Shown one piece after another: positions 56,237-61,924 of a stretch of 64,000 bases of DNA. Numbering within the stretch: position 1 is the first letter of the stretch; each line of letters begins with the position of its first letter. The position numbers and the translations under genes were made by a program. The DNA lies in NCBI RefSeq assembly GCF_040932485.1, contig NZ_JBFRBH010000001.1, forward strand, positions 1,550,001-1,614,000, written 5' to 3'. The DNA is from Gymnodinialimonas sp. 202GB13-11. Lineage in GTDB: Bacteria; Pseudomonadota; Alphaproteobacteria; Rhodobacterales; Rhodobacteraceae. The notes below the pieces were generated by a model, which was not told where the DNA came from, searched no databases, and worked only from the letters and a program-made list of their open reading frames with translations.

Positions 56237-58774
56237 TCAGCTGACCTCGATAACTGTATCGTAAAGTCCATAACGAGTCAGACCAGAATGGCTATCGATG
56301 CCGCTGTATGACAGCGACGCGTCCTCATATCTGCGGAATGCGAATACAGCTTGGTTCATATGCTCGGTGTTGAACACCTTGAGGCGAACCAGCAAATGGA
56401 AGTCAGCAACGGTCAGCCCCGTCACGCTCAAGAAAAGATCAGGTTCAAGTTTCGTAATTACATCTTGCAGCGTGTTTTCGCGGAAGTCTGTCAGATACAT
56501 AAACGCGGGTATCCGAGTTGCGAACTTGACCAGCTTTTCCTGAACGAGTTTGCGCTTCGATTTAAACTCTTTCTCCTCAGCGGAAAGCTCTTTCTTTTCC
56601 TTCTCCGAAATGTCGCCCGATTTAGCTTTGCCCTTTAGTTCCTTGACCTTCTCGCTCTTGTTGATGATCGTTTCGATGATGTTGTCGCCGAGCGCGCGCC
56701 ACCCTTCGATACGCTCCACCGCTTTCATGGCTTCTTCGTTGTCCATGATGCGTCGCAGGGTGTCGTTATCGACGTTCACCAACAGCGCGCTTTCCCATTT
56801 GCGAGCCAGCAGTGTCGCAGAGGTTCCGGCCATCGCTATGTCCAGAATGCCACCAGCATCAATCTGGGTCATGTTCGCGCCGTCGTAAGCGAGAACAGGC
56901 AGGAAAGACACAAGATCACGAACCGCGTTTTCTGGGTTCGGTTCGTTTGGTGAAAGCCCAATGCCGTATTCCGACAACTGCCTGAGGGCGCGAGTCGGTG
57001 CAAAATCAAAGACAAAGCAAACCGGCTTGAGAACTTCTTCCTCGTTGGGATTGTCGCCATTCGGGTTCTTGATCGCCCACGGCGACTGCACCCTAAACGC
57101 GGCTTGAAAGTACGTTTCCGGCGATTTCAGGTTCCGCAGCATCAGAATTGAAGACCATTGCTTGACCGTCACGCCGGTTGTGAGCTTGCCGCAGGACAGG
57201 GTGATCGACTTCGTGTCAAAGCCGCTTCCGATAGCCGCGCGAACTGGTGGCAAGGCTTCAAGCCCGATGCCTGCCGATGTGCCAGCCGACACCACCACGT
57301 TGTACTCGTGCCAGAAATTGTTTTGGCGCTCTGCCAACAGTTTCGTCATAGCATGACATGCGGCGACGTTTGGCAGGAACCAGAATGAGTGCTGGAGGTA
57401 TGGCAACAACCGCACGTCAGAATATGGGAACGGCGGTCGCGTGCCTGTTCTGAGGTTGTCCACCGCATGAGCCGCGTGCTGGCCCCTGATGATATTCAGC
57501 CAGGTCTGCACTTCATCCTTGTGCTTGAACTGTGCATTCGCACCTGTGCCGGTTGCGGCAAAAAACTCGTTCAGGTCGAACTCGTCGAACTCACCCGCGC
57601 TTGCTATGGACAACAGTTCGTCCGGCATCTGATAGGTCAGCAACCGCATCTGTGGCAGTGAGCCGTAAGGGTTCCATTGGCCGGGATGGTTTGCCGCAAA
57701 TTCGGCCTTGGCGCGTTGCTCGTCGGTGTAGGTCCAGTTGAAGATCTGTTCTTCGATGAACTCGCCCGTCGCCAGCGCCTTGAACGGTGTGCCTGACAGG
57801 TAGAGGTAAGCCCGTGTCGTAATCGGCAAGAACTCGGTTTCCGCTTCAAGTGGCTCCTGCAACTCGGCAACGCGCTCCGTCAGCTTGTTTGCGTCTTCGA
57901 GAAGCTTCTCCTCACGCTCAAGGGCTTCTTCTTCGCCTTCGAACAGTTCCTTGGCACTCTCACGCCACGCGCCGAAATGGTATTCGTCAAAAACCACCAA
58001 GTCCCAGTTGACCGCGTGGAGCCAATCGTTCCGGGGCTTGATATTACCCAGCCGATCCTTGCCCAGCATGTCTTGGAACGAGCCAAAGTAGACCACAGGC
58101 TTGCTCTCGTCGATCTGGGTTGGATCGGCGTCTGATTTGCGGGACAGGTATTGCCAGCCGTCGAAATCGACATGGCTTTCAAGGTCGGTTTGCCACGCAT
58201 CTTCCACGGCTGGCTTGAAGGTCAGCACCAGCACCCGCTTTGCGCCCATCTTGCGGGCCAACTGGTAGGTGGTGAAGGTCTTGCCGTAGCGCATCTTGGC
58301 GTTCCACAGAAAGCGGGGAACGGCGTGCATGTCCTCAGACCAACGGGACATATAGTAGGCGTGAGTTTGCTCGACCGCCTCGCGCTGTTCCCTGCGCATG
58401 GCAAAGGTCTGGTGGTGCGTGCCCGAGCGTTTTTGCCCGGTGCGCAATTCGGTCAGGACGGTCTGCACATCCGCAAGAGAACACTGCATCCATTCCTTTT
58501 CAGTGTTCACAAATCCCTTGCTGACAAGCCGCGCGCGCACTTCATGGTCGGTTATGAAAGAACCATCCGCACGTTCTGCTGGTTCATCAAGTTCGATGGT
58601 GAAGTTCTTGATTGCGGCGGTGCCGAGTTGCTCGTTTACCCGTTGCCGCACATCCCGTGTGGTCTGCCCGACTTTGAGAAGACCCGCGTGGGCGGCATCG
58701 TCAATCGAATAAGCGTAAATGCGGGGGCGAGCCTTTGGTTTTGGCTCTAGAATGTCGTCAACAGTCACGGACAT
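56237..58774 (-). CDS. SF2 helicase with N-terminal GIY-YIG-like domain
   Basis: 845 residues. Residues ~16-100 resemble the T5orf172/MUG113 branch of GIY-YIG (IYAYSIDDAAHAGLLKVGQT, then RQRVNEQLGT). The SF2 core follows: divergent Walker A AKMRYGKT (159-166), Walker B/II DEYH (263-266), motif III YLSGTPF (about 330) and motif VI QAAFRVQSPW (about 553-562). A charged Lys/Glu-rich helical stretch (about 715-755) precedes the C-terminal domain. The motor plus nuclease-like fold suggests the restriction subunit of the operon. It follows the methylase gene by two bases. Confidence 0.85.
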   Translation of the reverse strand: MSVTVDDILEPKPKARPRIYAYSIDDAAHAGLLKVGQTTRDVRQRVNEQLGTAAIKNFTIELDEPAERADGSFITDHEVRARLVSKGFVNTEKEWMQCSLADVQTVLTELRTGQKRSGTHHQTFAMRREQREAVEQTHAYYMSRWSEDMHAVPRFLWNAKMRYGKTFTTYQLARKMGAKRVLVLTFKPAVEDAWQTDLESHVDFDGWQYLSRKSDADPTQIDESKPVVYFGSFQDMLGKDRLGNIKPRNDWLHAVNWDLVVFDEYHFGAWRESAKELFEGEEEALEREEKLLEDANKLTERVAELQEPLEAETEFLPITTRAYLYLSGTPFKALATGEFIEEQIFNWTYTDEQRAKAEFAANHPGQWNPYGSLPQMRLLTYQMPDELLSIASAGEFDEFDLNEFFAATGTGANAQFKHKDEVQTWLNIIRGQHAAHAVDNLRTGTRPPFPYSDVRLLPYLQHSFWFLPNVAACHAMTKLLAERQNNFWHEYNVVVSAGTSAGIGLEALPPVRAAIGSGFDTKSITLSCGKLTTGVTVKQWSSILMLRNLKSPETYFQAAFRVQSPWAIKNPNGDNPNEEEVLKPVCFVFDFAPTRALRQLSEYGIGLSPNEPNPENAVRDLVSFLPVLAYDGANMTQIDAGGILDIAMAGTSATLLARKWESALLVNVDNDTLRRIMDNEEAMKAVERIEGWRALGDNIIETIINKSEKVKELKGKAKSGDISEKEKKELSAEEKEFKSKRKLVQEKLVKFATRIPAFMYLTDFRENTLQDVITKLEPDLFLSVTGLTVADFHLLVRLKVFNTEHMNQAVFAFRRYEDASLSYSGIDSHSGLTRYGLYDTVIEVS

Positions 58775-58776
58775 CG

Positions 58777-61274: not shown

Positions 61275-61924
61275 TCGTTAACCTCAAGGGGTAAGTCAAT
61301 CTGTCTTGCTAAGTCTCTTATTGTCATTGGGGGATATGTCTTTGTCGGTCTAAATATTTCATGATTTCCAAGAGCCGCAAAAAGCGAACCCTCTGCATTA
61401 AATGCAGACGCACCGGTCAGAACATCTAATCGAAAATCGCGGCGTTGAAATTTACCCTTTCCCAAATAGCCCCATTCGGCAAATGAAATGGGAACGCTTT
61501 GAGAAGTCTGCATGTTCAGCGCATCGCCATGTACTAGGTTGGTCAAAAGAACATGTGACGCGGCACGGTATAGGTCATCATCTGGCGAAAGACGCAGATA
61601 TTCTGACAGCACCTCGAGCATGTTGGCCCGGCACTCGTCGATGTTGTCGGCTAGGATCTCGACGCCATAGCAGCACATTAGCCCCAACAGCGCATAGTGG
61701 CGCCGGTTGAAATCGGACTTACCAAACTTTACTTGCACAGCCGCAAGCTTGCGTTGCAGGACCGGCACGAGAAAGTTACCGCTGCCGCACGCAGGCTCAA
61801 GAAAGCGGGCATCGATCCGCTCGGTTTCGCCCTTCACGAGGTCAAGCATAGCGTTCACCATCCATTCGGGGGTAAAGACTTCGCCGTGGTCGGCGACACG
61901 TTGTTTCGAGCGGATCAGCACCAT
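61271..61924 (-). CDS. Small N6-methylase-fold protein lacking the NPPY motif
   Basis: 217 residues from the ATG at 61924 (KSKQRVADHGEVFTP-type opening, here RSKQRVADHGEVFTPEW). SAM motif I FLEPACGSGNFLVPVL is at 41-56 and is canonical. The chain ends about where motif IV (NPPY) would be expected: KFQRRDFRLDVLTGASAFN stands in its place. It is therefore not a complete methylase alone. It may bind SAM as a regulatory or structural partner of the full methylase. First gene of the operon. Confidence 0.85.
   Translation of the reverse strand: MVLIRSKQRVADHGEVFTPEWMVNAMLDLVKGETERIDARFLEPACGSGNFLVPVLQRKLAAVQVKFGKSDFNRRHYALLGLMCCYGVEILADNIDECRANMLEVLSEYLRLSPDDDLYRAASHVLLTNLVHGDALNMQTSQSVPISFAEWGYLGKGKFQRRDFRLDVLTGASAFNAEGSLFAALGNHEIFRPTKTYPPMTIRDLARQIDLPLEVNE

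Follow-up and report, generated by a model that had tools for sequence, protein, structure and literature searches.

Four tightly packed genes on the minus strand, at 56237-61924 of the 64,000-nucleotide stretch of DNA analysed here (the window), encode two methylase-like proteins and two proteins with nuclease-like domains. The locus raises the question of whether this set is a distinct defence architecture of unclear type, as a first-pass annotation of the window had proposed, or a known restriction-modification (RM) system with an added gene. We found that three of the four genes have the layout of a DrdVI-type split type IIG system, and that the fourth is an accessory gene whose relatives occur in many other operons.

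The operon and its surroundings

The ORF listing of the window yields the operon (M1, P3, M2 and R) and the adjoining integrase as follows:

55059-56231, plus strand: tyrosine integrase of the putative island, convergent with R (ORF listing and domain search)
56237-58774, minus strand: R, counterpart of DrdVI (74% identity to pDrdVI), in which an SF2-type translocase is joined to a T5orf172 GIY-YIG-like nuclease domain
58777-60348, minus strand: M2, counterpart of M2.DrdVI (50% identity to pDrdVI), an Eco57I-type methylase that contains NPPY and whose variable C-terminal region is likely the recognition part
60345-61274, minus strand: P3, a GIY-YIG nuclease-like protein with DUF4357, PADLOC PDC-S14, the inserted accessory gene (PDC-S14 match at 1.6e-112)
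61271-61924, minus strand: M1, a small SAM-binding methylase-like subunit of 217 aa without NPPY, counterpart of M1.DrdVI (69% identity to pDrdVI M1)

The genes are as compact as the first-pass annotation had described, with a 4-nt overlap at both the M1/P3 and P3/M2 junctions and a gap of 2 bases between M2 and R. The longest M1 frame spans 61271-62008; relatives align from residue 29, so the start of M1 is most likely at 61924.

The integrase, likewise noted before, appears to be part of an island of ~11.2 kb at tRNA-Ser. This is suggested by the integrase itself, by a second recombinase at L002 11941-12975 (L002 being a locus with its own coordinates), and by a 15-bp repeat at 54890-54904 whose second copy forms the 3' end of tRNA-Ser(gga), ~2.1 kb past the window end (L002 13080-13094). 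The two repeats are likely the ends of the integrated island. The gene to the left of the island has matches in 4 of 13 same-genus genomes, its own included, and in the one of these that was read no integrase follows within 1.5 kb. Two other island genes are divergent from the operon: one at 62064-63284 (plus strand) matches nothing in Pfam, NCBIfam or PADLOC and has a single 25% plasmid relative, and one at L002 10286-11104 has a weak HTH match only. Elsewhere in the window, a very large ORF (27474-37943, minus strand) encodes 3489 aa.

The M1-M2-R core

M1, M2 and R have counterparts in the same order on plasmid pDrdVI of Deinococcus wulumuqiensis NEB 479, with identities of 69%, 50% and 74%. 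The window carries each element of the DrdVI-type layout: M1, M2 and R in order on one strand, with P3 between M1 and M2; a small M1 with a SAM-binding motif and without NPPY; an Eco57I-type M2 that has NPPY and is variable in its C-terminal region; and an R in which a GIY-YIG nuclease is fused to a translocase. By domain search, M1 has an N6_Mtase-like match that lacks NPPY, M2 matches the Eco57I methylase (6.6e-37), and R matches T5orf172 (2.8e-6) and ResIII (22.3 bits, just below the 22.5 cut-off). R and M2 each also match the PADLOC IIG model PDLC03626 (REase_MTase_IIG), while a search of solved structures by sequence gave nothing useful for R or P3 and one weak methylase match for M2. M1-2.DrdVI is a type IIG methylase that yields 6mA in GCAGCC, and its genes have been cloned and expressed (PMC6430315); a split-methylase family similar to DrdVI is described in an excerpt of PMC10113651. 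Judged by its sequence, M1-M2-R has the split type IIG layout of DrdVI and so belongs to an already known kind of system. The RM-like character of the operon is thereby borne out, and the type that the first-pass annotation left unclear can be named, but its claim of a distinct defence architecture does not hold. A match of the whole gene order to a named system, which it had set as a refutation of that claim, was obtained for three of the four genes (DrdVI); the fourth, P3, falls outside the DrdVI layout.

The first-pass annotation had seen no HsdS and no fit to BREX, and we agree on both points. ORF and domain searches found no HsdS specificity subunit (type I RM) in the operon, and no full-length match to PglX (BREX-2) or MAD2 (MADS) was obtained, the scores being 16.4 bits for M2 (cut-off 400) and 24.7 for M1 (cut-off 720). 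BREX, MADS and Alw26I-type assignments of the operon were rejected, as each gave weak partial matches only.

Among the best 40 of 79 plasmid records, the nearest relatives of R reach 84% identity. In the plasmids whose neighbouring genes were fully read (Sphingopyxis, Rhizobium, Acuticoccus and pDrdVI), R is accompanied by the gene of an Eco57I methylase and by a second, short gene that is methylase-like. The 45 relatives of R on viral contigs are arranged as M1-M2-R (n = 36), R only (n = 3), M2-R (n = 2), or R before M2 (n = 4, distant), and an Enterococcus plasmid encodes R and M2 as one protein behind an M1-like gene. Other genes were seen within such operons: a KilA-N gene occupies the M1-M2 slot of one DrdVI-type operon (L140 5574-6410), a different accessory gene in the same slot, and a 193-aa protein with no Pfam match lies between M2 and R in another (L155 7401-7982). 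On a Corynebacterium crudilactis plasmid (L007), a Tn3/IS region with streptomycin-resistance genes separates the Eco57I methylase gene from R.

The first-pass annotation treated "one and a half methylases" as an oddity. None of the 28 M1 relatives read from the 36 viral loci has an NPPY-type motif, so the half form is normal for M1, and its SAM-binding motif and HGEV-T segment are conserved in the window and 26 relatives. A truncated methylase was rejected as an explanation of M1, the same short NPPY-less form being present in 8 proteins aligned by eye and in 28/28 relatives. M2 carries its own motif I-like stretch as well as NPPY. Over residues 1-300 it shares 68% identity with M2.DrdVI; because residues 301-470 are just 24% identical, the target site of M2 probably differs from GCAGCC, which would be a new specificity in the DrdVI family. 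The middle region of M2 is 53% identical to that of the Sphingopyxis M2.

P3 and the operons of its relatives

P3 matches the PADLOC PDC-S14 model over most of its length (residues 7-303, 1.6e-112). Its first-pass description as a GIY-YIG/DUF4357 protein stands, DUF4357 by domain search and GIY-YIG by the predicted model and conserved residues; there is no Pfam GIY-YIG match for P3 itself. The GIY-YIG superfamily motif consists of conserved GIY, YIG, Arg, Glu and Asn, and these expected catalytic residues are conserved in P3. The predicted model (pLDDT 92.6) has the GIY-YIG fold, aligning with GIY-YIG nucleases over residues ~26-138 in a second structure aligner; with Foldseek alone, no alignment reached E 0.001. 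In the portions of the literature available to us, PDC-S14 is a candidate with a proposed restriction-like action, and PDCs are said to have been found by "guilt-by-embedding" (PMC12988326).

The genome scan for P3 kept 80 loci of at least 534 relatives, and 21 viral loci were added; 66/80 and 17/21 have at least 3 kb on both sides, and the rest are shortened by contig ends. The order M1-P3-M2-R, whose absence from other genomes the first-pass annotation had named as a second refutation, occurs at none of the 80 genome P3 loci, the 21 viral P3 loci or the 45 viral R loci, some of them cut short by contig ends. Other DrdVI-type operons seen have no P3 inside, and one has P3 adjoining: in Loktanella atrilutea (L051), P3 lies tail to tail with a close M1-M2-R. 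Acuticoccus carries P3 and M1-M2-R apart on one plasmid (P3 plasmid relatives were tabulated for the best 30 of 52 records). These are the only links between P3 and the core seen besides those of the co-occurrence draws, in which 394 family-wide genomes contained R in 7 (two as fragments only) and P3 in 62. R and P3 occurred together in two genomes, that of the window and another in which they lie on separate contigs, against ~1.1 expected by chance if both draws are taken to cover one set of genomes. A further 120 relatives yielded no R. Thus the combination of a DrdVI-type core with an embedded P3 was not seen elsewhere in the loci searched.

P3 is common among other restriction systems. With contig-end-cut loci included, type I genes lie on both sides and on the same strand at 37 of the 80 genome loci, labelled genes on one side at 6, near otherwise at 4, and none at 33; the corresponding numbers for the 21 viral loci are 5, 6, 0 and 10. 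Within type I operons P3 takes the slots M-S-P3-R, R-M-P3-S and M-P3-S-R, besides forms with other accessory genes. HSDR_N is still matched by the R of each of four type I partners that were examined (in one of them below cut-off), and P3 is therefore an extra nuclease there, as in the window. Other neighbours include a type II/III-like methylase (L026), a type III methylase (L031) and a PLD helicase (L042). At L055 (3659-18677), P3 lies within a two-helicase system with DruE-like, DpdE-like and DrmMI-like (Eco57I/DrmMI-like methylase) matches and, by eye, an HNH-like gene, resembling the MexAMORF1192P layout as given in a figure legend of PMC4752239.

We mapped the type I label on a P3 tree of 80 rows with long branches, comprising the window and 79 of the 80 genome loci, with L092 left out for its shortness, the 21 viral loci left out as well, and five one-side loci counted as type I. 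The label changes 18 times, at least 11 of these changes being forced by well-supported branches; shuffled labels gave a mean of 26.8, with 0/500 as low. The label is more clustered than in the shuffles, so the context of P3 is not random, being partly inherited and often switched. The window P3 pairs with that of L052 (support 94/90), where a PCMT gene follows, and not with the Loktanella P3.

Relatives of P3 were also found between housekeeping genes: ABC_tran and ABC-3 (L047), Complex1_51K and Molybdopterin (L032, with an overlap at the upstream side only), DSBA and MFS (L056), two ABC genes (L057; L063 alike), polyketide synthase and glycosyltransferase (L049), and aminotransferase and LMW phosphatase (L059). 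Because these relatives nest in non-defence operons, embedding is weak evidence of a defence role for PDC-S14. No account of P3 relatives in housekeeping operons was found in the accessible parts of the literature on DrdVI, PDC-S14, GIY-YIG/DUF4357 and free-standing GIY-YIG proteins.

Among genome loci having such neighbours, P3 shares an exact 4-nt overlap with the downstream gene at 43/48, with the upstream gene at 34/53 and with both at 26/44, as compared to 64/182 control pairs of neighbouring genes, all counted from permissive, rough ORF calls and regardless of shared descent. P3-free homologues of the flanking genes (30 best loci of 149 genomes each) overlap the gene next in position by 4 nt in 27/30 cases for the ABC gene and 11/29 for the zinc-transporter-like gene, and a 4-nt overlap is possible in 18 of 45 DrdVI-type M1-M2 pairs. 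The overlaps fit insertion of P3 at coupled junctions, whether a mechanism or selection brings this about. For the 58 of 111 P3 copies with fitting ends, the two flanks within a locus match at 7.14 of 14 bases, vs a shuffle mean of 6.36 and a maximum of 7.02 in 2,000 shuffles; those of the window P3 match at 3/14 only. A 16-bp target-site duplication around P3 was dropped as proof of transposition, since P3-free homologues carry the same tail.

Competing explanations and known systems

We are confident that the operon is a DrdVI-type split type IIG RM system (M1, M2 and R) with a separate nuclease gene, P3, inserted at the M1-M2 junction. The observations behind this reading are the identity and order of the genes, their conserved motifs, the lack of P3 inside the other DrdVI-type operons seen, and the presence of P3 in many other operons. 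We infer all activities, the target site and the P3 substrate, the core mechanism being drawn from the family and the published DrdVI data. M1 and M2 together would methylate adenine within an asymmetric site, with the variable C-terminal part of M2 selecting that site, and R would act at unmodified sites, moving along DNA with its ATPase motor and cutting with its N-terminal GIY-YIG domain. P3 would be an autonomous accessory nuclease whose place in operons secures both its expression and its spread, and the DUF4357 at its C-terminus probably reads DNA. Our preferred guess is that P3 cuts DNA escaping the core system, such as modified phage DNA.

The insertion sites lend some weight to a different account of P3, in which it is a selfish, homing-like GIY-YIG gene spreading at translationally coupled junctions, with any defence benefit secondary. 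Its positions between housekeeping genes, the 4-nt overlaps relative to control pairs and the same overlaps in P3-free homologues all point this way, and the free-standing GIY-YIG Seg nucleases of T4 offer a precedent, though only that, in homing without introns, according to the consulted part of PMC1564403. However, the 37 of 80 genome loci in type I operons are, in our uncomputed judgement, far above random insertion; flank similarity is at least partly native ribosome-binding sites; the window flanks hardly match; selection alone could leave mainly coupled insertions; and the overlap counts carry the limits given with them. We regard a primarily selfish P3 as possible but doubtful. A narrower form, in which the PDC-S14 gene is a mobile cassette inserting precisely at overlapping stop-start (ATGA) junctions of RM and housekeeping operons and keeping the coupling on both sides, seems to us rather unlikely. 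If true, it would make P3 a selfish gene of the homing type that targets operon junctions, and its classification as a defence gene by "guilt by embedding" would have to be reconsidered.

Anticodon nucleases in type I operons act as guard-type effectors, and P3 might likewise be a guard, or an effector akin to a toxin, set off by inhibition of host restriction, in keeping with its recurrent nesting in or beside several RM types. Domain search recognised no antitoxin or sensing part, and P3 is also found within metabolic operons and at sites away from RM genes, so we hold this role to be improbable. Even less probable is a single new RM complex of four proteins with two nucleases. The compact co-directional operon and the Loktanella P3 adjoining the same kind of system would suit such a complex, but the four-gene order is absent from the other loci searched, R and P3 do not co-occur in excess, and the window and Loktanella P3 are not sisters on a tree where contexts switch often. 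Under the preferred reading of a DrdVI-type core with an inserted P3, the apparent new defence architecture becomes a known one plus a hitchhiker, and the preference of P3 for coupled gene junctions is a more novel lead than the four-gene operon.

The closest known system is DrdVI (pDrdVI; type IIG, M1-2.DrdVI and DrdVI), which shares with the window the order and domain make-up of M1, M2 and R; unlike the window, pDrdVI has no gene between M1 and M2, and residues 301-470 of M2 are those of low identity. MaeIV of Methanococcus aeolicus, a split methylase yielding 6mA in GCACY, is placed in the DrdVI family in the published text available, and we liken it by description. The fused Enterococcus R-M2 resembles the window in matching PDLC03626, as both R and M2 do, and in the M1-like gene ahead, and differs in being a single protein. 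PDC-S14 (PADLOC) is matched by P3; the candidate is a single gene, however, and lies within a DrdVI-type operon only in this window among the loci seen. TgvAB and DarTG2 are, in the sections consulted (PMC11411939, PMC12255303), accessory defence genes between RM genes, like P3, but they are other proteins and their hosts are type I systems. OspHL35III-like IIG systems (MTase, translocase and separate GIY-YIG), likened by their description in the part of PMC4752239 consulted, share a separate GIY-YIG gene with the window, whereas the window R has a GIY-YIG domain of its own.
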